In this document: positions 509 to 13,224 of the stretch, piece after piece
Position numbering within the stretch: the stretch's first letter is position 1
Layout: the number at the start of each line of letters is the position of its first letter
Origin: Gluconobacter potus
GTDB lineage: Bacteria; Pseudomonadota; Alphaproteobacteria; Acetobacterales; Acetobacteraceae
Assembly: GCF_015244705.1 (NCBI RefSeq)
Contig: NZ_JABCQF010000002.1
Location: forward strand, 124,001-188,000
Direction: 5' to 3'
Length of the DNA: 64,000 nucleotides
Notes under the pieces: generated by a model
The model's database searches: none
Told to the model about the DNA's origin: nothing
What the model saw: the letters and a program-made list of their open reading frames with translations, nothing else
Made by a program: the position numbers and the translations under genes

Positions 509-2113
509 ATGCGCCAGGATTTCACCATCGGAATCGACAGTGGTTCCACGACGACCAAAGCTGTCGTGTTTTCGCCGACTGGTGCGATCACAGGGACGGG
601 GCGTCGTCGTGTTCCACAGCATATGGACCGGCCGCACCATGTTGAGCGGGATATGCATGAGGCCTGGGAGGCCGTCATCGGTTCGGTTCAGGACGCACTG
701 GCGGATGCAGGGATCGATGGTTCGGCGGTTGCCGCCGTCGGGCTGACTGCACATGGGGACGGTGTTTTTCTGCTTGACCGCTCAAGTAGCCCGTTGGGGC
801 GGGGGATCATGTCGCTCGACAGCCGTGCTACGGCGCTCCATGAGCGCTGGCAGCGCGACGGCCTGTCCGATCTGGTGCTTCCGGTGGCCGGCCAGCGTCC
901 TTATGCCTATTCGGCCAACACGCTTCTGGCCTGGATCCGGGAAAACGAACCGGAACGTTATGCGGCGATCGGGTCCGTCATCTTCGCCAAGGACTGGATC
1001 CGGTACTGCCTGACGGGCGAGATTGCGACGGATCTGACGGAAGCCAGCACGTCTTTCACGGATCTGCATACACAGAACTACAGCGATGAACTGCTGGAAA
1101 TCCTGGGATTGCAGGGCATCCGAAAGGCGCTGCCGGAGATGCGCCTGTCCTGTGAAAGCGGTGGCGTCCTGACGCCTGAGGCTGCTTCCCGGACCGGCCT
1201 GAGGGCTGGAACGCCTGTTTCGGTCGGGCTGCATGATGTCACGGCCGCTGCGGTCGGTGTGGGTCATACGCAGGCCGGGGATCTTTCGATTACGGCGGGT
1301 ACGTTCTCAATCAATGAAGTGTTCCGGGACCGGCCGGTCATCGGGGAGGGCTGGGCCTGTCGCGCCGGATATCGGCGGGGCCTGTGGAACTGCATGGCCA
1401 TTTCGCCAGCATCTTCCAGTAATCTTGACTGGCTGGCCAAGCTTCTGAAGCCCGACGAACAGGACGCGGCCCGGCAGCTCTCAGCGGAAATGGAAAGCCG
1501 CCTGTCAAAGCCGGGCGGACGTCATCAGGTTCCGCTGTACCATCCCTTCCTGTTCGGCTCGCCCTATGAAGCGCCGGCCAGTGCTTCGCTATTCGGGGTC
1601 CAGTCCTGGCACGACCGGGCTGACCTGTTCCAGGCCATGGTGGAAGGAACGATCTTCAATCATCGCGAGCATGTCGATGCCCTGCGCCAGACAGGCCCGG
1701 TCCGCAGGATCGGCGTATCGGGCGGCGGGAGTGGCCAGCCGGTGATTGCACAGATGTTCGCCGATATTCTGGGAGCAGACGTTGAAATACCCGAAGTGCG
1801 TGAAGCAGGCGCGCTGGGAGCTGCGCTGACAGCCAGTGTCTCTATCGGACGATACGCCGATCTGGAAGAAGCCGTATTCTCCCAGATCATTCCGATGCAG
1901 ACATACAGGCCCCAGACCGAACGGCGTCGCGTCTATGAAGGGATTTACCGGCGTTATGTCGCTCTGACCCAGGCCATGCGGCCTTTCTGGTCGGATCTTT
2001 ATGATGGTGGCCCGGCTCAGGCAGAGCCCGTTGCAGAGCCGGCCGACGTGGAGACAGGCGCTGTCCTGAATTATGCCGCAATGGGCTTCATGCCGCAGGA
2101 GGCCAGACCATGA
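509..2113 (+). CDS. eryA: FGGY-family carbohydrate kinase, probable erythritol kinase EryA
   Basis: A 534-residue member of the FGGY sugar kinase family, which phosphorylates polyols and sugars with ATP in the cytoplasm. The phosphate-binding start IGIDSGSTTTK lies at residues 7-17, a TAHGDGV segment near residue 82, and the adenosine-site GGGSGQ loop near residue 405. The ATG follows a GGAGG about eight bases upstream. The stop overlaps the next start. Assignment to erythritol kinase (erythritol to D-erythritol 1-phosphate) rests mainly on the company it keeps: a GlpD-like dehydrogenase and paralogues of TPI and RpiB, which is the Brucella/Rhizobium ery gene set. Another polyol such as threitol or ribitol as substrate cannot be excluded. 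Confidence 0.72.
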   Translation: MRQDFTIGIDSGSTTTKAVVFSPTGAITGTGRRRVPQHMDRPHHVERDMHEAWEAVIGSVQDALADAGIDGSAVAAVGLTAHGDGVFLLDRSSSPLGRGIMSLDSRATALHERWQRDGLSDLVLPVAGQRPYAYSANTLLAWIRENEPERYAAIGSVIFAKDWIRYCLTGEIATDLTEASTSFTDLHTQNYSDELLEILGLQGIRKALPEMRLSCESGGVLTPEAASRTGLRAGTPVSVGLHDVTAAAVGVGHTQAGDLSITAGTFSINEVFRDRPVIGEGWACRAGYRRGLWNCMAISPASSSNLDWLAKLLKPDEQDAARQLSAEMESRLSKPGGRHQVPLYHPFLFGSPYEAPASASLFGVQSWHDRADLFQAMVEGTIFNHREHVDALRQTGPVRRIGVSGGGSGQPVIAQMFADILGADVEIPEVREAGALGAALTASVSIGRYADLEEAVFSQIIPMQTYRPQTERRRVYEGIYRRYVALTQAMRPFWSDLYDGGPAQAEPVAEPADVETGAVLNYAAMGFMPQEARP

Positions 2114-3819
2114 AGGGGCTCGCCACCATACCGGACAATGCTACGTTCGATGTCGCGATCATCGGGGCCGGGATCAATGGGGCTGGCCTGTTCCGGGAAC
2201 TGTCGCTGCAGGGCCTGCGTGTCCTTCTGGTGGACCGGAGTGACTTCTGCTCCGGTGCGTCCTGCGCGCCCTCACGCCTGATCCACGGGGGCATTAAATA
2301 TCTCGAGACCGGCGAATTCCGGCTCGTGGCGCAGTCCACGCTGGAGCGCAACCTGCTGCTGCGGAATGCACCCCATGTGGTCAAGCCTCTGCCGACCGTC
2401 CTGCCGATCCGTTCCTGGTTTGGCGGCATCGTGCCGTCGTTCCGGAAATTTCTGAGGCTGGGCGGCAAAATGACGGATCGCGGTGCGCTCGTTCTGGAAG
2501 CCGGGCTGCAGATTTACGATTTCCTCGGGCGCCATGCCCGGGTGATGCCGCGTCACAGCCTTTTTCTCAGGCGCCAGACACGGCAGGAGTGGCCGCATAT
2601 AGCGGCGGATGTCATGGCGACGGCCCAATATTATGACGCCTCCATCACCCAGCCGGAACGTCTCGGTTATGAATGCGTGCGCGACGGCCTGGATGTCGGG
2701 ACGGGCTGCGCGGTTTCGACCTACACGGCGCCGGTGTCTTTTGCAGATGGGGTTCTGGAGCTGCGGGACGAAAAAAGCGGTGAGACGCGCCATGTCCGTC
2801 CGCGGCTCATCGTCAATGCGGGTGGAGCATGGATCGACCGGATCAACGCTGATCTGGGTCAGCAAACCCGTTATATCGGCGGAACGAAAGGCAGCCATCT
2901 GCTCCTGCGACATGAGGGGCTTCTGCAGGAGCTGCGTGGCCGCATGATGTATTTCGGAACGCCGGACGGACGCATCTGCCTGGCCTATCCGTTCTATGGC
3001 CATGTGCTCGTCGGTTCGACCGATCTGCGGATTGATGATCCTGACACCGCCGTCTGCACCGATGAAGAACAGGACTACATGCTGCGTATGCTCGGCGGCC
3101 TGTTCCCGGGCTTCCGGTTCAGCGCGGAGGATGTGATCTACCGCTACAGCGGTGTACGCCCGTTGCCTGCGACCAATGCCGCCGATCCAGGAGCCATCAG
3201 CCGCGATCATATCATCCATGAAGACGTTCTGGACGGCATACCGCTCCTGTCGCTGGTTGGCGGGAAATGGACGACGTTTCGTGGGCTGGCGGAAGAAACG
3301 GCAGACAGGGTGCTGGAAATGCTGGGAGCGGAACGGCACCTGTCCACCCGGGACTTCCCGATCGGTGGCGGCCGCGACTATCCCCCGCCGGAACGGTATT
3401 CCGCCTATCTGGACGAGTTCTTCGTCACGCACGGCCTGCCGAGAGCACGGGCGGCCCTGCTTCTGGAGCGTTATGGATCGCGGGCCCGGGCGTTTGCCGT
3501 GTTCTGTCAGGAAAAGCCGGATGCGCCGCTGCGCAGTCTGCCGTCCTACACGCGGCGTGAACTGGCCTTCATCGCCACCGATGAACTGGTGCGCACGCTG
3601 TCAGATGTGCTGTTCCGCCGCACGCCGATTGCGCTGAGCGGCCTTCTGACGCCGGACGTCGTCCGAGAAGCCGGGGCCATCGTGGGGGAGGCCCTTGAGT
3701 GGAGTGCTCAGGAAACAGAGCAGCAGTGTCTGCTGACCTGGCGGGAAGGGCAGGAGCGCCATCAGTTGAAAGGTGAGCTTCCTGCTGCATCGTTTTCACA
3801 TACAGCCCTGAGGGCATGA
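2110..3819 (+). CDS. eryB: GlpD-like FAD dehydrogenase, probable erythritol-phosphate dehydrogenase EryB
   Basis: A 569-residue flavoprotein of the glycerol-3-phosphate dehydrogenase (GlpD) family. The FAD-binding GAGINGAG is at residues 19-26, followed by the family signature SRLIHGGIKYLETGEF near residue 56 and GGTKGSHLLL near 257. It starts four bases inside the kinase gene, so the two are translationally coupled. GlpD proteins act on glycerol 3-phosphate. In erythritol operons the homologue EryB oxidises D-erythritol 1-phosphate to D-erythrulose 1-phosphate, and the gene order here favours that role. A plain GlpD acting on glycerol 3-phosphate is the main alternative, but no glpF or glpK-type neighbour is present. 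Confidence 0.72.
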   Translation: MKGLATIPDNATFDVAIIGAGINGAGLFRELSLQGLRVLLVDRSDFCSGASCAPSRLIHGGIKYLETGEFRLVAQSTLERNLLLRNAPHVVKPLPTVLPIRSWFGGIVPSFRKFLRLGGKMTDRGALVLEAGLQIYDFLGRHARVMPRHSLFLRRQTRQEWPHIAADVMATAQYYDASITQPERLGYECVRDGLDVGTGCAVSTYTAPVSFADGVLELRDEKSGETRHVRPRLIVNAGGAWIDRINADLGQQTRYIGGTKGSHLLLRHEGLLQELRGRMMYFGTPDGRICLAYPFYGHVLVGSTDLRIDDPDTAVCTDEEQDYMLRMLGGLFPGFRFSAEDVIYRYSGVRPLPATNAADPGAISRDHIIHEDVLDGIPLLSLVGGKWTTFRGLAEETADRVLEMLGAERHLSTRDFPIGGGRDYPPPERYSAYLDEFFVTHGLPRARAALLLERYGSRARAFAVFCQEKPDAPLRSLPSYTRRELAFIATDELVRTLSDVLFRRTPIALSGLLTPDVVREAGAIVGEALEWSAQETEQQCLLTWREGQERHQLKGELPAASFSHTALRA

Positions 3820-3822
3820 ACC

Positions 3823-4815
3823 ATGAACCGTTACGAAGAAAAGATTGCCCGCATGGTAGCGGGTCAGGACAGCCGGACCGATTTCATCCTCGCGGATGCC
3901 AAGGATTCCGATATGGCGGCCGGAATCAGCGCCACGGGTCTGCATCGCCATCCGGTCTCCATGCAGGAAAAGCGCTCGCGCTTCCGCACCCGGCGCGACT
4001 ATGTCGATGTGATCAGGACGATCCTCGATCAGGACGTCGTGGACATCATGCTGACTTCGGCTTCGATCCTGGAGACCCTGCTTCAGGAAGATGCCTTCGC
4101 CGGGACGCGCATCCAGTCGGCCATCCGCGCCAATGACACCACGGACCTGTGGCGGGGCCGGGGAAGCAGCTATCAGAGCCAGAAATCGGTTCCGTTCCGT
4201 TCGGCGTCCCTGATGAAAGCGCAGACCAATCTCGGCCTGTATTCCATGACCTTCAATGGCGATGCCGAGCAGGATAGTCTGGCGCTGGAAGAATTCGCCC
4301 GGTTTCGCGAAGAAGCGGCGGAGCGGCGTTTTTCGTATTTCCTGGAAGTGTTCAATCCCAATGAAGGGCGCATTTCCCGGGCGGATCACGGTTTCTTCCT
4401 CAATGACATGATTGTCCGCTGTCTGGCCGGTTTGCGACGCGAAGAGCGGCCGGTTTTCCTCAAGGTGCCGTTCAATGGCGCAGAGGCGCTGACGGAACTC
4501 TGCGAGTTCGACCCGTCTGTGATCGTCGGCATCATGGGCGGCGGAAGCGGTACGACCCGCGACTGTCTGGAACTTCTGCATCAGGCCCAGTGCTGCGGCG
4601 CCCGTGCTGCCCTGTTCGGCCGCAAGATCGTGGACGCGGACGATCCCGTCCTGCTGATCGAAGCCATGCGCAGTGTCACGGACGGCGCACTCTCGCCCAT
4701 GGAAGCCACCCATCTCTATCATGAAAAAATGGGCAAACGCGGACTGGTCGCCGGGCGCGATCTGGAGATCGACAGTGTGGTGACGGAAACTGTCCTGCTG
4801 GAGCGGGCGGCGTGA
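3823..4815 (+). CDS. TIM-barrel protein of unknown function in the eryC position; possible D-erythrulose-1-phosphate epimerase or aldolase
   Basis: A 330-residue protein three bases behind the dehydrogenase gene. It does not look like EryC, which belongs to the xylose-isomerase-like epimerases. Its C-terminal half instead resembles class I aldolases of the LacD/DhnA type: FLKVPFNG places a lysine (residue 214) where those enzymes form a Schiff base, and MGGGSGTTRD (238-247) looks like a glycine-rich phosphate-binding loop. The position between dehydrogenase and TPI paralogue is where the erythritol pathway needs conversion of D- to L-erythrulose 1-phosphate. I infer it may supply that step or cleave a tetrulose phosphate. 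The function is unproven and the family link is by eye. Confidence 0.6.
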   Translation: MNRYEEKIARMVAGQDSRTDFILADAKDSDMAAGISATGLHRHPVSMQEKRSRFRTRRDYVDVIRTILDQDVVDIMLTSASILETLLQEDAFAGTRIQSAIRANDTTDLWRGRGSSYQSQKSVPFRSASLMKAQTNLGLYSMTFNGDAEQDSLALEEFARFREEAAERRFSYFLEVFNPNEGRISRADHGFFLNDMIVRCLAGLRREERPVFLKVPFNGAEALTELCEFDPSVIVGIMGGGSGTTRDCLELLHQAQCCGARAALFGRKIVDADDPVLLIEAMRSVTDGALSPMEATHLYHEKMGKRGLVAGRDLEIDSVVTETVLLERAA

Positions 4816-4859
4816 CGTTTGCGTGAAGGGTGGGGAACCTTTCGGATGTATCGTTATTT

Positions 4860-4928
4860 TTGATGATAATAACAGTTTTAATGTTATAATTTAGCGATAA
4901 AGTGGTTTAGATATCATTGGGGTGGGAG
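4860..4928 (+). promoter_or_regulatory. putative internal promoter and ribosome-binding site before the TPI paralogue
   Basis: After the stop of the TIM-barrel gene the sequence turns markedly A+T-rich. TTGATG (4860-4865) and TATAAT (4885-4890) make a sigma-70-like pair, though the 19-base spacer is longer than ideal. ATATCATT at 4911-4918 also occurs in the regulatory region before the kinase gene, which hints at a shared regulator. GGGAG at 4924-4928 serves the ATG at 4936. This suggests the second half of the cluster can be transcribed independently. Confidence 0.4.
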
Positions 4929-4935
4929 AATCGTC

Positions 4936-5763
4936 ATGAGCATTCAGCCAGTTGGTCAGTCTTTCGGGAGGTTGGTTGTGGATCAGAAGAGCGTCTGGAT
5001 CGGGACGAGCTGGAAGATGAACAAGGGACCGGCCGAAGCGATTGCGGCGGCGCGGGCACTTGAATCCTTCCAGCCGCCGGAAGGGATCCGGTCGTTCGTG
5101 ATCCCGCCTTTCACGTCCCTGCGGGATGTGTGCTCGGTGCTGGAAGACAGCGCGCTGCTGGTGGGCGCGCAGAACATGCACTGGGAGGACAGTGGCGCCT
5201 GGACCGGGGAGGTTTCCGCGCCGATGATCGCCGAGTGCGGAGCGTCCATCGTGGAAATCGGCCATTCGGAGCGCCGACAGCATTTCGGCGAGACGGACTG
5301 GACGGTGAACCTCAAGGTGAGGGCTGCGCTGCGGCACGGTCTGCGTCCGCTGATCTGCATTGGCGATACGTCGGATGAATTCGAGTTCGGGGTTTCGCAG
5401 GAGACGCTGGCACGGCAGGTGAAAATTGCGCTGCATGGGGTGTCCAGAAAGGATCTGGGGCAGGTCATGGTTGCGTATGAGCCGGTCTGGGCCATCGGAT
5501 CGGCGGGACGTCCGGCCGAGGCGTCCTTCGTGTCCGGGATCCATACCAGGTTGCGTGCTGTCGTGCGTGAACTGGCGGGGGACAGTGGCGTGCGCATCCC
5601 GCTGCTTTATGGCGGCAGCGTCTCGCAGGCCAATATCCGCGACTACGTCGCATTGCCGGATGTGGACGGTGTGTTTGTCGGGCGTGCGGCCTGGGAGCCT
5701 GCGGATTTCATGATGCTGGTGGAAAGTGTGAGCGGGGTTGTGTCCCGCAAAATTGCCGCGTGA
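4936..5763 (+). CDS. eryH: triose-phosphate-isomerase paralogue, probable L-erythrulose-1-phosphate isomerase
   Basis: A 275-residue TIM-barrel isomerase. The catalytic histidine is in EIGHSERRQHFGE (H110) and the glutamate in VAYEPVWAIG (E182), with lysine in TSWKMNK (K27). In housekeeping TPI that motif reads GNWKMN; here the asparagine is serine, which I associate with the EryH/LerI branch that turns L-erythrulose 1-phosphate into D-erythrulose 4-phosphate. Two starts are possible: ATG 4936 with GGGAG upstream, or GTG 4978 with GGGAGG upstream. The latter removes an N-terminal extension of 14 residues that TPIs usually lack. A duplicate glycolytic TPI is the alternative function. Confidence 0.7.
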   Translation: MSIQPVGQSFGRLVVDQKSVWIGTSWKMNKGPAEAIAAARALESFQPPEGIRSFVIPPFTSLRDVCSVLEDSALLVGAQNMHWEDSGAWTGEVSAPMIAECGASIVEIGHSERRQHFGETDWTVNLKVRAALRHGLRPLICIGDTSDEFEFGVSQETLARQVKIALHGVSRKDLGQVMVAYEPVWAIGSAGRPAEASFVSGIHTRLRAVVRELAGDSGVRIPLLYGGSVSQANIRDYVALPDVDGVFVGRAAWEPADFMMLVESVSGVVSRKIAA

Positions 5764-5841
5764 TGACGGTCATCACGGGATCACGTCCTGTTTCCGGCAG
5801 CGGAACAGTCTGACTGAACGTCAAAGAAACGGAGAACAGTC

Positions 5842-6324
5842 ATGCGTATTGCGATTGGTGGAGACAGTGCAGGCGAAGGCCTGGCACGGCTTCTGGTGGA
5901 ACATCTCTCGACACTGGGACGGCATGTCGTCGTTGACATGTCCCATCCCGAGGACGAGCGGGCCGAACTGTATTCGGAACTGAGTGAGCGTGTGGCGCTG
6001 GCTGTTCTGCATGGAGAATTCGACCGGGGCATCCTGTGCTGCGGGACGGGGATCGGGGTGTGCATTTCCGCCAACAAGATCCCGGGCATCCGGGCCGCGC
6101 TGACCCACGACACGTATTCCGCAGAGCGTGCGGCGCTCTCGAACAACGCGCATATCATCACGATGGGATCGCGCGTCATCGGGCCGGAAGTGGCGAAATC
6201 CATTGCCGAAGCCTGGCTGGCCTGCACGTTTGATCCGCGCAGTGCCTCGGCACGGAATGTGGCTGGCATTGATGCGCTCGGAAAGAAATACCGCCAGCAG
6301 GCTCCTGTCGGCGCAAGTTGCTGA
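5842..6324 (+). CDS. eryI: RpiB/LacAB-family isomerase, probable D-erythrulose-4-phosphate isomerase
   Basis: A 160-residue sugar-phosphate isomerase of the RpiB family. The reactive cysteine lies in CCGTGIGV (C67), followed by the typical [10 protein letters not shown] and [13 protein letters not shown] segments. RpiB interconverts ribulose and ribose 5-phosphates. In erythritol clusters its paralogue EryI converts D-erythrulose 4-phosphate to D-erythrose 4-phosphate, the entry to the pentose phosphate pathway. The gene sits 78 bases after the TPI paralogue and before the transporter, which supports the erythritol role. An ordinary ribose-5-phosphate isomerase B remains possible. Confidence 0.72.
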
Positions 6325-6378
6325 AGTAAAACTCCCGGTCCGGAACTGATCCGGCTGGTTCTTTGAAAGAATACACTT

Positions 6379-7320
6379 ATGAAAACGGCATTTGCTTTTG
6401 CCGCAATGCTGACGGCTGCGCCATTTCTGGCGCCGCTTGCAGCAGGTCAGGCCCATGCAGCGGATAACAGCGCACCCCTGCGCTTCGTGCTGATCCCCAA
6501 GACCGTGCATCCCTGGTTCGACAAGGCGAATAATGGGGCACAGGCGGCTGCGGCGATGATCTCGCAGGCGACGGGGCGGAAGGTCGAGATCGAATACCGC
6601 GCGCCGCAGACGGCGGATGTGTCGTCCCAGAACGACATTATCGAGCGTGCCATCGCGACCCATCCGGACGGGCTGATCCTCGATCTGCTGGATGAGAAGG
6701 GCAACCGCGCCACCATGGACGAGGCGGTGGACGAGAAGATCCCCATGACGGTGTTTGATTCCCTGCCGCCTGAAGGCATGGATATCACGGCTGTGGGCGC
6801 GGATTTCTGCGAGCAGGGCACGATGGCGGCCGAGCGGCTGGCGAACCTGGTCGGCAAGAAGGGCGAAGTGGCGATCATGATGGGGGTGCCGACGGCGCCG
6901 AACCACACCCTGCGGGCCGAGTGCGAAAAGAAGGTCTTTGCGAAATACCCGGACATGAAGGTTGTCGCGACCGGCGTGGACAATGACAGCATCGAGACCG
7001 CGCAGAAGCAGGCCTCTGCTATCATGCAGGCGCATCCGGATCTGGTCGGATGGGTCGAGTGCGATGCCTCCGGACCGGTGGGCGTCGGCCAGGCCATCCG
7101 CGAGAGCGGCAAGACGGGCAAGGTCAAGGAAGTGGGGCTCGATAACCTCAATGACATGATCCAGCTCATCAAGGATGGGGTTGCTGAGTCCTCTGCGTCG
7201 AGCCGGCCGGAAATGCAGGGTTACTGGGCCGTCGTGTCTGCCTGGCAGCGGGCGATGGGGCAGAAGACGCCCAAATACATCGATACCGGCATCGATCTTC
7301 TGACGAGCAAGAACCTCTGA
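6379..7320 (+). CDS. sugar ABC transporter substrate-binding protein
   Basis: A 313-residue periplasmic binding protein of the RbsB/LacI-like fold (Peripla_BP_4). A cleavable signal peptide ends with AHA at about residue 27. The mature protein starts with LRFVLIPKTVHPWFDKANNG, the usual first strand and ligand loop of the family, and contains SQNDIIERAIATHPDG and the late GWVECDASGPVGVGQAI stretch. ATPase and permease genes follow at once, so it is the ligand-binding part of a CUT2-type importer. Given the pathway next to it, the ligand is probably erythritol, L-erythrulose or another tetritol or tetrulose. This is inference from context. Confidence 0.8.
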   Translation: MKTAFAFAAMLTAAPFLAPLAAGQAHAADNSAPLRFVLIPKTVHPWFDKANNGAQAAAAMISQATGRKVEIEYRAPQTADVSSQNDIIERAIATHPDGLILDLLDEKGNRATMDEAVDEKIPMTVFDSLPPEGMDITAVGADFCEQGTMAAERLANLVGKKGEVAIMMGVPTAPNHTLRAECEKKVFAKYPDMKVVATGVDNDSIETAQKQASAIMQAHPDLVGWVECDASGPVGVGQAIRESGKTGKVKEVGLDNLNDMIQLIKDGVAESSASSRPEMQGYWAVVSAWQRAMGQKTPKYIDTGIDLLTSKNL

Positions 7321-7350
7321 CGCAGCAGGACAGGAAGGGGAGTGACGGTC

Positions 7351-8856
7351 ATGACAGTTCTTCAGATTGAAGGCGTCCGGAAGACCTATCCCGGTGTGGT
7401 GGCGCTCGATCATGTCGATCTGACGCTGGAGCCCGGGAAGATCCATATTCTTGCCGGGGAGAACGGCGCCGGGAAGTCCACGCTCATCAAGACGCTGACC
7501 GGGCTGGTCGTGCCGGATGAGGGAACCATCCTGATCGAAGGACAGGATGCGCTGCATGACCGGACACTGTTCGAGAAGGTCGCCTATGTCCCGCAGGAGC
7601 TGAACCTGTTCGGGCCGATGACCGTAGCCGAGAACATGTTCATGCCGTTCAACCGTTCCGGGTTCGGGCATCTGACAGTGTCGCGCGGAGCAATGGAGAA
7701 GGCGGCGGCGGAACTGATCGAGCGGTTCGGCATTCATGCGAAGCCGGGGCAGCTCGTAAACCGCATCAGCGTACCGGACCAGCAGCTCCTTCAGATTGCG
7801 CGCGCGGCATGCCGTGAAGAATTCAAGGTTCTGATCCTTGATGAGCCGACGTCTTCGCTGACGGCCAATGAGACGGAGCATTTGTTCCGCATCATTCACC
7901 GGCTGCGCGATGAAGGCTGCGCGATCGTGTTCGTGTCGCACAAGATGGAAGAAATTTTTGCGCTTGGGGACACGGTGACGGTGTTGCGCAATGGCCGCAG
8001 CGTGGGAACCTATCCGATGGCGGAGATGACGGAGGTGCACCTGATCCGGCTGATGTCGGGCAGTTCGGTCTCGCTTGAGGAGAAGTTCCAGCCGCGTATG
8101 GCGGCGTCTGAATCCGACGTCATCTTGAGCGTTAAAGATATGTCGGGGCCGGGGTTCTCGGATGCATCCTTTGTTCTGCGGCGGGGGGAAATCCTCGGGT
8201 TTGCGGGGCTTGTAGGCGCCGGGCGCTCGGAGCTGATGCAGACGATCTTCGGATATCTGCGTTCGACGGGGGGGCATGCGTTTCTTGAGGGTGAGGAGAT
8301 CCCGAAGGGCCGCACTGACCGGGCCGTGGCTCTGGGGATGGTTTACCTGTCCGAGGAGCGCAAGCATCACGGCATTTTCCCGCTTCTGAGTGTGCGGGAA
8401 AACATCAGCCTCTCGGTTCTGGACCGCATGAAGCGCGGCGGGATTATTTCTCCGGCGCGTGAGAACGAGGTCGTGGCCGATACGATCCGCCAGTTCGATG
8501 TGCGGACGTCCTCGGCCGGCAAGAAGATCGCGCATCTGTCGGGTGGGAACCAGCAGAAGGCCATCATTGGTCGGGCGATGGCGCGGCGGCCGCGTGTGCT
8601 GATTTTCGACGAGCCGACCAAGGGCATCGATATCGGCACGAAGTTCCAGATCTACCGCATCATGCAGCAGCTCGCGGAAGAGGGCGTGGGGATCATTCTC
8701 GTCTCGTCCGAAATGACCGAGCTCCAGCGCTGCGCCTCGCGGATCATCACCATGTATTCCGGCCGGATCACGGGATCGTTCGATCAGGCCACTACTGACG
8801 TCAACACGCTTGTCGGCGCGATCATCGGCGCCCCGGAGACCCGTCATGTCGCTTGA
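7351..8856 (+). CDS. sugar ABC transporter ATP-binding protein, RbsA type
   Basis: A 501-residue protein with two ABC ATPase modules in tandem, as in RbsA, AraG and XylG. Module one has Walker A GENGAGKST (36-44), a weak signature (ISVPDQQLLQIARA) and Walker B LILDEPTSSL. Module two has a degenerate Walker A (AGLVGAGRSE), the signature LSGGNQQKAIIGRA and Walker B LIFDEPTKGID. I chose ATG 7351 because AGGGGAG lies nine bases upstream; the GTG at 7342 directly follows that motif and is unlikely. The 3' end overlaps the permease gene by 11 bases. Confidence 0.85.
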   Translation: MTVLQIEGVRKTYPGVVALDHVDLTLEPGKIHILAGENGAGKSTLIKTLTGLVVPDEGTILIEGQDALHDRTLFEKVAYVPQELNLFGPMTVAENMFMPFNRSGFGHLTVSRGAMEKAAAELIERFGIHAKPGQLVNRISVPDQQLLQIARAACREEFKVLILDEPTSSLTANETEHLFRIIHRLRDEGCAIVFVSHKMEEIFALGDTVTVLRNGRSVGTYPMAEMTEVHLIRLMSGSSVSLEEKFQPRMAASESDVILSVKDMSGPGFSDASFVLRRGEILGFAGLVGAGRSELMQTIFGYLRSTGGHAFLEGEEIPKGRTDRAVALGMVYLSEERKHHGIFPLLSVRENISLSVLDRMKRGGIISPARENEVVADTIRQFDVRTSSAGKKIAHLSGGNQQKAIIGRAMARRPRVLIFDEPTKGIDIGTKFQIYRIMQQLAEEGVGIILVSSEMTELQRCASRIITMYSGRITGSFDQATTDVNTLVGAIIGAPETRHVA

Positions 8857-9868
8857 AACCACTGTTCCGGCAGCCCCTTCGCAACAGCCGCCGAAGCTCC
8901 CGCCACTCAAGGCGCTCGTCTCCCGTCTGGCAGGAAATCCGCTGGGGGGCGTGATTGCGGCGCTCGTCATTATCTTCGGGGCGTCCTGTGCGCTTTCGCC
9001 GCACTTCCTGACGACGTTCAACATGATGATCATTGCCCGTGCGCTGGCCTTTATCGGGCTGGTGACGATCGGGCAGTCCGTCCTGATGATCCTCGGCGAG
9101 CTTGATCTGTCCGTGGGTGCGATTGGTGGGCTTGCAGGCGTGGTTGGTGGCATCCTGATGGTTCAGCTCGGGCTCAATCCCTGGCTGTCGCTGGGTCTGT
9201 GCCTGCTGATGGGTGGGGGGTGCGGATTGCTGAACGGGGCGCTGATCACGCAGCTCCGCCTGCATTCCCTGGTGCTAACGATTGGTATGGCCGGCGTATA
9301 TGGCGGCGCCAACCTCGTTGCGACCAAGGGTGTTGCGATCACGGGTGTGCCGCGGGACATCACGTTTCTGGGGCGAGGGCTCGTGATGGGCGTGCCGGTG
9401 CCGTTCCTGGTGCTGCTGGTCTGTCTGGCGATCGTGGCATTCATCATGCTGCGCACACCGGTCGGGCGTTACATCTATGCCATTGGCAGCAATCCCGATG
9501 CAGCGCGGATGCTGGGCATCCGGGTCAATGCGATCCGCATGGGTGCATTCGCGCTGGCCGGGTTCCTTTCGGCGCTGGCGGGCATTCTGATGGTGGCGCG
9601 TCTGGGCACGGCCCAGCCTTCCATCGGTGACACCTGGGTGCTCGGGCCGATTGCCGCGGCCGTCATTGGTGGCGTGGCGACAACGGGTGGCATTGGCAGC
9701 CCGATTGGTGCGGTTCTGGGCGCCGTCATCATCGGCATCATCGAAGACATCATCGTTCTGTTTGGCATCTCGCCTTACTGGCAGTCGGTCGTCAGTGGGG
9801 GGATCGTCGTACTGGCGATTTCCTTCGATGCGCTGGCCCGCCGTTACCTCAACCGTGATGCCGTCTGA
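8846..9868 (+). CDS. sugar ABC transporter permease, RbsC type
   Basis: A 340-residue inner-membrane protein with a soluble N-terminus of about 35 residues followed by some nine or ten hydrophobic segments, matching the BPD_transp_2 permeases of CUT2 importers. LSVGAIGGLAGVVGG near residue 92 and the glycine-rich GPIAAAVIGGVATTGGIGSP near 268 are typical of RbsC-like proteins. ATG 8846 lies inside the end of the ATPase gene and is preceded by CGGAGA, which implies translational coupling. It completes the importer begun at 6379. Only one permease gene is present, so a homodimeric pore is expected. Confidence 0.83.
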   Translation: MSLETTVPAAPSQQPPKLPPLKALVSRLAGNPLGGVIAALVIIFGASCALSPHFLTTFNMMIIARALAFIGLVTIGQSVLMILGELDLSVGAIGGLAGVVGGILMVQLGLNPWLSLGLCLLMGGGCGLLNGALITQLRLHSLVLTIGMAGVYGGANLVATKGVAITGVPRDITFLGRGLVMGVPVPFLVLLVCLAIVAFIMLRTPVGRYIYAIGSNPDAARMLGIRVNAIRMGAFALAGFLSALAGILMVARLGTAQPSIGDTWVLGPIAAAVIGGVATTGGIGSPIGAVLGAVIIGIIEDIIVLFGISPYWQSVVSGGIVVLAISFDALARRYLNRDAV

Positions 9869-9890
9869 AATCTGAAAAGGGAGACGTTCC

Positions 9891-11666
9891 ATGACCAAGA
9901 TCTGCGGTGACGCATCGACTTTCGCAGCGTCCGCCCTCCGGGGCTTCAGCCTGCTTCATCCCGATCTCGTGCGGCATGTGCGCGGCGGTGTGCTTCGGGC
10001 CACGCCGGGTCGTCGCGGCAAGGTTGCCGTCGTCCTCGGCGGGGGGTCGGGGCATTATCCGGCCTTTGCGGGCTATGTTGGACCGGGCTTCGGCGATGCA
10101 GCAGTGGCGGGGGATATCTTCGCATCGCCGTCCACGCAGGCCATCAAAAGCATTGCGCGCCAGGCCGATCTGGGAGGCGGGATTATTCTCGGTTACGGCA
10201 ACTACGCCGGGGATGTGCTGAATTTCGGGATCGCAGCGGACCGGCTGCGCGAAGAGGGCTATGACGTTCGCGTTCTGGCCACGGCGGATGATGTGGCCAG
10301 CTCGGATGCCTCTACACGGGAGAAGCGGCGCGGAATTGCCGGGGATCTGGTAATCTTCCGCATCGTAGGCGCCGCAGCCGAAGCGGGACTGACACTCGAT
10401 GAAGTCGAGGAAGTCGCGCAACGGGTGAACCGTCAGACCTGCACATTTGGTGTGGCATTCGATGGTTGTACGCTGCCGGGCGAGAAGGAAAAGCTGTTCG
10501 AGGTTCCGAAGAACCGCATGGCGCTCGGACTGGGCGTGCATGGGGAGCCGGGCATTGACGAGAAGGATATCCCGGACCCGGAGCATCTGGCGCATATCCT
10601 GTTCGATCGCCTGCTGGCAGAGCTTCCGGAAGGGGCTTCGCGCCGGGTGGCAGTTCTGCTGAACGGTCTGGGCAGTACCAAGCAGGAAGAGCTGTTCGTT
10701 CTGTGGGACCGGCTGGTGCCAATGTTCGAAAAAGCAGGTCTGACGCTCGTGGCGCCGCTGGTGGGCGAGTATGTCACAAGCCTTGATATGGCAGGCTGTT
10801 CGTTGACGCTGACCTGGCTCGATGAGGATCTTGAGCGGTACTGGCGTTCGCCTGTGGAATCTGCCGCGCTTAGCCATGGCCAGCTGAGCGGGGACGGGAC
10901 TACGCGGCTTGAAGTGCCTGAGGAAACCGAGATCCTCTACATGCGCTCCGGAACGGCGCAGGGCCGTCGTGGCGGGGCGTGTGTGGCGGCGGTGATGGAT
11001 CATCTGGCCCGGACACTGGCTGAAGCGGAGTCTGACCTCGGGCATATTGATGCCGTGGCGGGTGATGGCGATCATGGTCAGGGCATGGCCCGTGGCTCGG
11101 CGGCGGCGGCGAAGGTCGCGCGGGCGGCGGCAGATGCCGGCGCTGGTCCTGCGACGGTTCTGGCCTCGGCGGCGGACGCCTGGGCGGACAGGGCTGGTGG
11201 CACGTCTGGCGCTCTCTGGGGCGAGGGACTGCGGGCCTTCAGTCTGGCGCTCGATGACAACAGTCTGCCCGATGCGCGACAGCTTTCAGGGGGCGCGCGG
11301 AACAGCATGGAGCGCATCATGGAGCTTGGCCGTGCGAAACCTGGCGACAAGACACTCGTGGATGCGCTGGTGCCGTTTGTCGAAACGCTGGAGCAGGCGC
11401 TGGCTGCGGGGCATGGACTTGTGGATGCTTGGCGCATGGGAGCGGAAGCGTCTCACGAGGCTGCGCAGGCCACGCGTGATCTGTCGCCCCGGATGGGACG
11501 CGCTAAAATGCACGGCGAACGCAGTAAGGGGCATCCCGATGCAGGAGCACTCTCGCTGGCACTTTGTGCGCGGATTGTAGGTGAGGATCTGGGCAACGGT
11601 CTGGCTCCTGCGGGTGGAGACAAAGACCGGATAGAGGCGATTCGTCTTGTGAAGGCCGGACGGTAA
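9891..11666 (+). CDS. dihydroxyacetone-kinase family protein (DhaK-DhaL fusion), probable erythrulose kinase
   Basis: A 591-residue ATP-dependent Dak-type kinase with both domains in one chain. The DhaK half carries GGGSGHYPAF (~50) and GVHGEPG, whose His217 corresponds to the histidine that binds the ketone covalently. The DhaL half carries AGDGDHGQG with metal-binding aspartates near 392 and 394 and AGGTSGALWG. No dhaM (phosphotransferase) gene is nearby, consistent with ATP use. Dak-family enzymes LerK and DerK of Mycobacterium phosphorylate L- and D-erythrulose. With TPI and RpiB paralogues upstream, an L-erythrulose 1-kinase is the attractive reading; simple dihydroxyacetone kinase is the conservative one. 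Confidence 0.75.
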   Translation: MTKICGDASTFAASALRGFSLLHPDLVRHVRGGVLRATPGRRGKVAVVLGGGSGHYPAFAGYVGPGFGDAAVAGDIFASPSTQAIKSIARQADLGGGIILGYGNYAGDVLNFGIAADRLREEGYDVRVLATADDVASSDASTREKRRGIAGDLVIFRIVGAAAEAGLTLDEVEEVAQRVNRQTCTFGVAFDGCTLPGEKEKLFEVPKNRMALGLGVHGEPGIDEKDIPDPEHLAHILFDRLLAELPEGASRRVAVLLNGLGSTKQEELFVLWDRLVPMFEKAGLTLVAPLVGEYVTSLDMAGCSLTLTWLDEDLERYWRSPVESAALSHGQLSGDGTTRLEVPEETEILYMRSGTAQGRRGGACVAAVMDHLARTLAEAESDLGHIDAVAGDGDHGQGMARGSAAAAKVARAAADAGAGPATVLASAADAWADRAGGTSGALWGEGLRAFSLALDDNSLPDARQLSGGARNSMERIMELGRAKPGDKTLVDALVPFVETLEQALAAGHGLVDAWRMGAEASHEAAQATRDLSPRMGRAKMHGERSKGHPDAGALSLALCARIVGEDLGNGLAPAGGDKDRIEAIRLVKAGR

Positions 11667-11978: not shown

Positions 11979-13224
11979 GAGGGTTCGAAAAACCCGTTGG
12001 TTTTGTGGGCGTCTCTGTAATTCTATTTTCCCTGCGTGGATTAGGGATAGATGGCATGAAGCAGCCGGGTTTCTTTGATGTTGAAGAGCGGCTTGCTCGG
12101 TTGAGTGGGCCTGGTGATCAGCTCGAAGCCTTTTCCCGGACTGTGGATTTTGAGATGTTTCGACCTGATCAGGAGAAGGCTCTTGCCTATTCGGATGGAC
12201 GCAAAGGTAGAGAGCGCCGTTTGATCCGGTGTTGATGTTCAAAATCCTGGTGATCCAGACACTGAACAAGCTCTCCGACGAGCGGATGGAAGACCTGATC
12301 AATGACCGTCTATCTTTTATGGGCTTCCTTGGTCTGGGCGTGTCGGATCAGGTACCCGACGCCAAAACGATCTGGCTGTTTCGTGAGCGGCTGACGCAGG
12401 CCGGTGCGATTGAAAGACTGTTCAACCGCTTCAATACCACATTACGGAACGCCGCTTATCTGCCGATGTCGGGCCAGATCCTGGACGCAACGTTGGCGGC
12501 GCCAAAGCAGCGCAATACAAACGCTGAGAAGACGGATCTCCGGGAAGGACGGATCCCACAAGACTGGCAGGACAAACCCTCAAAGCTGTCTCATAAGGAC
12601 AGGCATGCGCGCGGGACGCTGAAGTTCATCAAAGCAAAGCGACAGGATGATGGAACATTTCCGGCAACGGATCTTGCCCTCTCGTCCTTTGGCTATAAAT
12701 CCCATGTCTCCATCGACCGAAAGTTCAGGCTGATCCTTCAATGGAAGGCAACTGATGCCGCCTCTAATAATGGTGCGAGATTGAGAGAAGGGTTGCTTGA
12801 CCGCAGCAATACCGCGTCTGATATCTGGGCAGACACAGCCTACTGCTCAAAAGCCAATGAAGCCTTCATGGAAAAGCACGGCTTTGTCTCAAAAGTTCAC
12901 AGGGAGAAGCCTCATCTCAAGCCCATGCCGCGGCATATCCAGCGGTCCAATGCCGGAAAATCCGTCGTTCGGTCCCGTGTCGAGCATGTCTTTGCCGATC
13001 AGAAAGCACAGACGGGACTGTTTGTCCGGACAGTGGGTATCACCCGTGTCACCATGAGGATTGGGATGGCAAATATCGTCTACAACATGCGCCGCTTTCT
13101 GTTTCTGGAGTGGATCAGTACGACCGCATAGCAACTCAGCGGGGCAATATCCCCACACGGATCAAAACGCCATAACTCTGAAATCAGGAAACATGAGTTC
13201 AAAAAAAGATTCTTCGATCCCCCC
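11979..13224 (+). mobile_element. IS5-family insertion sequence, resembling Gluconobacter IS5-type elements
   Basis: The element encloses a frameshifted IS5-type transposase gene. Its ends are imperfect inverted repeats: GAGGGTTCGAAAAACC at 11979-11994 against GGGGGATCGAAGAATC read inward from 13223 on the other strand, matching at 12 of 16 positions. No clear target duplication is visible, so the exact ends are uncertain by a few bases. The element separates the polyol cluster from the DUF3313 gene and adds to the mobile character of the region. Confidence 0.7.
12056..13131 (+). pseudogene. IS5-family transposase, frameshifted
   Basis: The first frame (12056-12235) begins MKQPGFFDVEERLARLSG and carries the N-terminal transposase domain. 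It runs out at LIRC. A second frame picks up in the -1 register near 12211 and continues with PFDPVLMFKILVIQTLNKLSD through the DDE domain (QILDATLAAPKQR, DIWADTAYCSKANE, SRVEHVFADQK) to 13131. Together they make about 358 residues, a normal length for an IS5-group transposase. Some IS elements use programmed frameshifting, but no clear slippery run lies at the junction, so a disabling one-base change is likelier. Confidence 0.8.

Follow-up and report, generated by a model that had tools for sequence, protein, structure and literature searches.

We analysed a 64,000-nucleotide stretch of Gluconobacter potus (contig NZ_JABCQF010000002.1, positions 124,001 to 188,000; here called the window), in which nine genes on the forward strand form one run at positions 509-11666 according to open reading frame, Pfam and NCBIfam scans. 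They encode an FGGY kinase (A), a GlpD-like FAD dehydrogenase (B), a protein that we call X, a triose-phosphate isomerase (TPI)-family protein (H), an RpiB-family protein (I), a ribose-type ABC importer and a one-chain Dak kinase (DAK). The intergenic distances are, in order, -4, 3, 120, 78, 54, 21, -47 and 22 bp, and the -47 bp overlap between the ATPase and permease genes shrinks to about -11 bp when the permease is started at ATG 8846. We propose that the run is an operon for the assimilation of four-carbon polyols and ketoses, with two modules meeting at erythrulose 1-phosphate (Eu1P) and with X as a candidate Eu1P aldolase, a reading to which we give a probability of about 0.5. The original prediction, made from the DNA letters alone, had placed here a combined pathway from erythritol and L-erythrulose to D-erythrose 4-phosphate. 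The kinase, dehydrogenase, isomerases, complete importer and one-chain Dak protein that it listed are all present; it named eight of the nine genes and passed over X (3823-4815), unless X was what it meant by "an epimerase". It had also taken the host for an acetic acid bacterium, in agreement with the closest named relative found, Gluconobacter aidae AC10, whose nine proteins are 96-99% identical to those of the window; the genome that carries the window measures 3.42 Mb.

Enzymes and importer of the operon

The genome contains three TPI-family and two RpiB-family genes, and we compared the products of the operon, H (4936-5763, +) and I (5842-6324, +), with both housekeeping and EryH- or EryI-type relatives. 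In a 36-row tree H lies within a 21-row EryH-type clade (support 100/100, branch length 2.77) with the housekeeping TPIs outside, while the TPI on contig C8, whose neighbours we take by eye to be pyrG and eno, clusters among the housekeeping proteins. Against the family model NF051858, I scores 239.2 bits, slightly below the cut-off of 240, and the rhizobial EryI scores 251.9. The tree places I with EryI (91/81) and the other RpiB of the genome outside, one housekeeping-type row being a very long branch. Grouping of the two isomerases with housekeeping TPI and RpiB had been set beforehand as the result that would speak against the original prediction; it was not observed, and a housekeeping identity is rejected firmly for H and more weakly for I. 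Judged by tree position, the convergence on Eu1P and the exit through EryH- and EryI-type enzymes appear well founded: H would convert L-Eu1P to D-erythrulose 4-phosphate, and I would convert this to D-erythrose 4-phosphate. The reactions assumed for LerI/EryH-type and DerI/EryI-type isomerases and for EryC are taken from PMC10733421 (cited, as are all papers below, from excerpts) and partly from general knowledge.

The kinase A (509-2113, +; Pfam FGGY_N and FGGY_C) and the dehydrogenase B (2110-3819, +; DAO and DAO_C) were compared with the ery loci of Rhizobium tumorigenes and Paracoccus sp. TOH, each of which holds an eryA-B-C set and, by the importer, a second FGGY kinase with a GlpD-type dehydrogenase (L064 15057-19071 and L065 16577-19813, respectively). 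The records of these loci hold family names only, and we presume the names EryA, EryB, EryC, EryH and EryI from gene order (kinase, dehydrogenase, TIM barrel, regulator) and known lengths. EryA and EryB so labelled have 522 and 503 residues, whereas the second kinase and dehydrogenase have 510 and 554. The order used is that of eryABCD (PMC3599248). A is 46-47% identical to the second FGGY kinase and 27-30% to EryA, and B is 47-49% identical to the second dehydrogenase (GlpD2) and 29-30% to EryB. The trees agree, joining A with the second FGGY kinases (100/98) and B with GlpD2 (86/85), with three-row EryA and EryB clades apart (100/100 each); a long-branch warning applies at EryA and the outgroups, and the EryB clade stands behind a long branch. 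Given the gene-order labels, the "EryA-, EryB-like" genes of the original prediction are thus not orthologues of EryA and EryB. A reaches 154.8 bits against the GlpK cut-off of 590.35; a separate GlpK of the genome scores 651.2, a separate pentulose kinase is also present, and A is neither of the two. A might still phosphorylate erythritol. Together, A and B point to a second tetritol kinase/dehydrogenase pair, in rhizobia too.

A rhizobial EryC query gave no match in the genome of the window, and among the 34 of 49 X-bearing genomes that were searched it matched in one (G051; genomes and loci carry our working labels). The epimerase step that had been predicted between EryB and EryH is hence left without EryC here, and an aldolase-type protein stands in its place: X follows the dehydrogenase, the position that EryC occupies in the ery loci read. 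EryC would be unnecessary if the kinase used L-threitol or the other end of erythritol, since by our stereochemical reasoning the product would then be L-Eu1P.

The importer consists of a periplasmic substrate-binding protein (6379-7320, +; Peripla_BP_4), an ATPase with two ABC domains (7342-8856, +; Pfam), 35-37% identical to EryE-type ATPases, and a permease (8846-9868, +; BPD_transp_2), whose longest open reading frame begins at TTG 8810. Overall, the importer proteins are 23-37% identical to those of ery loci. DAK (9891-11666, +; Dak1 and Dak2) is a one-chain DhaK-DhaL kinase and a candidate L-erythrulose 1-kinase; LerK, the erythrulose kinase of Mycolicibacterium smegmatis, belongs to the same Dak family. 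In the tree the clade of DAK is separate from the other Dak protein of the genome, which is 33% identical, and neither of the two reaches the glycerone kinase cut-off. This other, distant Dak gene (L039 8708-11254, contig C10) is divergent from the other RpiB gene of the genome, and the two are possibly a DerK/DerI-like pair. Gluconobacter and other acetic acid bacteria oxidise erythritol to L-erythrulose (PMC11837542, PMC9171043), a point on which the original prediction is borne out in print. Salvage of the excreted L-erythrulose by the operon is plausible. A search of the open-licence PMC literature listed no paper on an operon by which Gluconobacter or close relatives would assimilate erythritol or L-erythrulose.

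Protein X, its predicted fold and its company

None of 47 aligned members of the X family has a significant Pfam match. NCBIfam gives sub-cut-off matches to DhnA-type aldolases in up to 45 of the 47, far below the cut-offs for the member shown here, and across these members X passes no curated aldolase family cut-off in either collection. The AlphaFold2 model of X (3823-4815, +) is an eight-strand barrel with a mean pLDDT of 93.1 and with Lys-214 on strand 6, a residue that is identical in all 47 members. A Foldseek search with this model gave 197 matches with E-values up to 0.001. The 50 listed are LsrF, an archaeal fructose-bisphosphate (FBP) aldolase, the ADH synthase MJ0400, tagatose-bisphosphate aldolases of the LacD type, an FBP aldolase from Slackia and a single structural-genomics entry; among these the best E-value is 1.6e-10, the TM-score on the query is 0.52-0.64 and the identity is 10-16%. 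Lys-214 aligns with Lys-184 of MJ0400 in a weak profile match (E 0.035), and the entry titles of MJ0400 describe it as bound to dihydroxyacetone phosphate (DHAP). From these titles and from general knowledge we take Lys-184 to be the catalytic residue of MJ0400. A glycine-rich motif and a GRK/GRN motif of X lie near strands 7 and 8. X therefore shares with the class I aldolases LsrF, MJ0400 and LacD a predicted fold, a strand-6 lysine and both motifs, but it differs from them in its low identity and in its lack of a family assignment. By TIM barrel and strand-6 lysine, X looks like a member of the class I (Schiff-base) aldolase superfamily, with Lys-214 as the predicted catalytic residue. A relationship with EryC was also considered and rejected, as BLASTP detected no similarity.

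Of 395 genomes of the order, 49 carry X. Among the 30 short X loci that matched best, the window's own included, B adjoins X in 29 and H adjoins X in 28, far beyond chance; the exceptions are one locus with X and DAK only and one with DAK in the place of H. In wider stretches the order A-B-X-H-(DeoR)-I-binding protein-ATPase-permease-DAK recurs in Gluconobacter, in Komagataeibacter and elsewhere in the family. Several of these sister clusters have a DeoR regulator gene between H and I, for which the window operon has no space. Two genomes of the window's genus (G097 and G158; loci L214 and L218) carry H-DeoR-I-importer-DAK apart from A-B-X-H, and a third genome (G333, L216) has I-importer-DAK separate from A-B-X, so that I, importer and DAK are detached from A-B-X in all three such genomes fetched. 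This is as expected if I, importer and DAK, with H in two of the three, form a route from L-erythrulose to erythrose 4-phosphate in their own right. G051 has an eryD-A-B-C-E-F-G locus, without an H or I match within the 19.5 kb read, and elsewhere a full A-B-X-H-I-importer-DAK cluster; because it carries both, A, B and X are not simply its EryA, EryB and EryC. A stop codon flagged in the X gene of G051 was dismissed, since the frame is open (353 residues holding a 325-residue match) and we read the match as extending beyond the gene's own stop.

One scan confirmed at least 543 loci of the X family. We counted the company of X in 80 named loci, the best 80 of the 543 confirmed and hence close kin of the query, with seeds and distance limits of our choosing. 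Sugar kinases, belonging to four families, lie near X in 72 of the 80: a PfkB kinase in 49, an ADP-dependent-type kinase in 7, another FGGY and GlpD pair in 4, the window-type pair in 10 and DAK alone in 2. DAK is in reach in seven of the ten window-type loci, and one of the 49 PfkB matches is on the opposite strand. No EryC match occurs near X in any of the 80, and an EryH-type match within 6 kb of X occurs in nine, all of them Gluconobacter or Komagataeibacter. Plasmid records with X, of which 6 of 46 were read, show GlpD-FGGY-importer-X-regulator in Agrobacterium and Martelella, X-DhaK-DhaL in Lichenicola, importer-X-PfkB in Shinella, alcohol dehydrogenase-X-PfkB in Rhizobium, and X with an ADP-dependent-type kinase in Sinorhizobium. 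An Agrobacterium-type set of GlpD, FGGY, X and regulator is also found in one genome of the window's genus (G107, L215), with no window-type A or B match in that stretch. Among 12 named genomes with X, five lack any RpiB-family match and have just one TPI each, which means that X must reach central metabolism without EryH and EryI there. Since X is found with kinases of four families and does not need the isomerases at its side, the best reading is that it is an aldolase for ketose 1-phosphates, one that most likely cuts such substrates, to judge from its company, to DHAP and an aldehyde.

A different setting is found in Asaia-/Ameyamaea-type genomes (L048, L049, L087, L219), where the neighbours of X and DAK include a D-erythronate dehydrogenase (DenD) and a barrel protein of the AP_endonuc_2 family, which we label OtnI-like. 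DenD exceeds its curated cut-off in L048, in L049 and at the position of L219, and it does so in 8 of the 34 genomes searched. A lactonase-like protein is also present in L049, and an Lra1-like dehydrogenase in L049, L087 and L219. By gene content the set looks like a route for four-carbon acid sugars with an unusual kinase and lyase. In the known L-threonate/D-erythronate route (LtnD or DenD, OtnI, OtnK, OtnC) a four-carbon 3-keto 4-phosphate is likewise turned over, with kinase and lyase of other families, and OtnC releases DHAP at its end (PMC12540250); X may by this analogy act on 3-oxo-tetronate 4-phosphate in Asaia-/Ameyamaea-type genomes. The X proteins of the operons and those of the erythronate-type loci form one 12-row clade (100/99). 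As a use of X in Gluconobacter itself the DenD route was rejected, because DenD is above the cut-off in none of the 17 searched genomes of the window's genus.

A proposed four-carbon pathway and its alternatives

In the pathway that we propose, the importer of the ketose module would take up L-erythrulose made from erythritol outside the cytoplasm, and DAK would phosphorylate it to L-Eu1P, the substrate presumed for H. In the polyol module, A and B would produce Eu1P from a tetritol, which may be threitol or else erythritol carrying its phosphate at the opposite end from the one used by EryA. X would most likely cleave Eu1P reversibly to DHAP and formaldehyde, and through cleavage it may additionally convert D- and L-Eu1P into each other, a reaction that would account for the missing EryC. 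Gene content, order, conservation and tree groupings are observations, the fold of X is a prediction, and every substrate and reaction of the pathway is inferred from them. If the proposal holds, acetic acid bacteria would have a means of recovering the L-erythrulose that they release, and a widespread family that has no Pfam entry would gain a function.

The proposal can be set against known systems. With the Brucella and rhizobial loci eryABCD, eryEFG and eryR-tpiB(eryH)-rpiB(eryI) (PMC3599248) the operon shares EryH-/EryI-type isomerases, a ribose-type importer and a kinase followed by a FAD dehydrogenase, and the DeoR regulators of those loci have counterparts in sister clusters of the operon; it differs in that A and B are apart from EryA and EryB, EryC and EryD are missing, and X and DAK are added. 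Ery-type loci without EryC and TpiB are already listed in PMC3599248 for Acidiphilium, of the same family, and the excerpts of that paper do not mention Acetobacter, Gluconobacter or Gluconacetobacter. Mycolicibacterium smegmatis, with LerK, LerI and DerI, likewise feeds L-Eu1P from a kinase to isomerases that lead to erythrose 4-phosphate (PMC10733421, PMC12780249); unlike that pathway, the operon adds a polyol branch in which the kinase comes first.

An Eu1P synthase activity has been reported for Propionibacterium, and a synthetic erythrulose monophosphate (EuMP) cycle has been designed (PMC10733421); Wu et al. (2023) suggested that co-occurrence of an Eu1P synthase with the isomerases may reveal a formaldehyde cycle existing in nature (PMC10733421). 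The operon resembles this design in combining a candidate DHAP-type aldolase, X, with LerI/EryH- and DerI/EryI-type isomerases, but the activity of X is predicted, and within the cell it would run in the direction of cleavage or salvage. Should X form or cleave Eu1P, the operon would be the natural co-occurrence sought by the designers of the cycle (PMC10733421). The reaction of X thus decides between a variant erythritol pathway and a natural erythrulose monophosphate route. The stronger form of the idea, in which X is a dedicated Eu1P aldolase/synthase from DHAP and formaldehyde, of an unnamed class I family, and forms with EryH and EryI a natural erythrulose monophosphate cycle, is in our view doubtful.

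Several observations weigh against the proposed pathway. Stoichiometric formaldehyde would be toxic, and the operon, the part of the genome searched for this, holds no formaldehyde-handling gene; moreover, if X makes DHAP from Eu1P, H and I become partly redundant. The sequence similarity between X and LsrF is limited to the last third (profile E 1.5e-4), LsrF now carries a thiolase name, and hhalign of X against Acetobacteraceae class I FBP aldolases gave no signal (probability 0.57%). In G031 the operon reads A-B-H, with X on the same contig about 8 kb past the operon end, so that X is dispensable within the operon there, and G137 has A-B-X-H yet no EryI-type match anywhere in its genome. 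Eight of the 80 counted X loci are without a kinase by the distance test, and the other seven of the 12 named genomes do have RpiB-family genes adjoining an EryH-type TPI, in some of them far from X. Finally, a search of the binding protein against solved structures returned none close enough to name the ligand of the importer.

An alternative that we think improbable makes X purely a 3-epimerase of D/L-erythrulose 1-phosphate, replacing EryC in an operon otherwise leading from erythritol and L-erythrulose to erythrose 4-phosphate, much as originally predicted. The position of X after the dehydrogenase and the absence of EryC from 33 of the 34 X-bearing genomes searched would fit, and a Schiff base formed at C2 could in addition bring about epimerisation at C3. 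The matching folds among the 50 listed of 197, on the other hand, are aldolases and LsrF and include no epimerase, X has no detectable similarity to EryC, and the sole genome with EryC, G051, has X as well. Moreover, 71 of the 80 loci lack EryH within 6 kb of X and five of the 12 named genomes lack an RpiB-family match, and an epimerase alone would not reach erythrose 4-phosphate by this route there. Unlikely as well, to a slightly greater degree than the epimerase and the dedicated synthase, is that A, B and X serve five- or six-carbon polyols, cleaved to DHAP and glycolaldehyde or glyceraldehyde, with the ketose module alone being four-carbon. Outside acetic acid bacteria, the kinases found with X (PfkB, ADP-dependent-type, another FGGY) and the various importers there give no hint of four carbons, and the arrangement in G137 is compatible with this idea; relatives of A and B, however, adjoin the ery loci of Rhizobium tumorigenes and Paracoccus sp. 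TOH, X of the operons shares its clade with X of the four-carbon, erythronate-type loci, and EryH is within the same operon.

Assimilation of glycerol and dihydroxyacetone, with A as glycerol kinase, B as GlpD, DAK as dihydroxyacetone kinase and H as an ordinary TPI, is permitted by the protein families, and acetic acid bacteria produce dihydroxyacetone from glycerol (PMC9171043). Both Dak proteins fall below the glycerone kinase cut-off, so the family models cannot show which of them, if either, is the dihydroxyacetone kinase. We nevertheless regard this route as very improbable, given the score of A far below the GlpK cut-off beside a true GlpK elsewhere in the genome, the place of H in the EryH clade while another TPI groups with the housekeeping proteins, and the lack of a role for I. 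Least probable of all, to the point of being scarcely tenable, is the model as first written, with orthologues of EryA and EryB plus an epimerase: families and gene order are the same, but A and B fall outside the EryA and EryB clades, with the long-branch warning noted above, and G051, Rhizobium tumorigenes and Paracoccus sp. TOH each have both types of kinase/dehydrogenase pair.

Genomic setting

The operon is flanked by transposases of the IS5 and IS481 families, at 12229-13131 of the window and at C2:123043-123954, just left of it, and may for this reason have moved. A second EryH-clade gene, 78-79% identical to H and accompanied by a DeoR regulator, lies on contig C1 (L149 8168-9789). The starts of its neighbours resemble those of the genes that flank the whole operon in Gluconobacter morbifer (L040), and the site is perhaps the old place of the operon with a remnant left behind.

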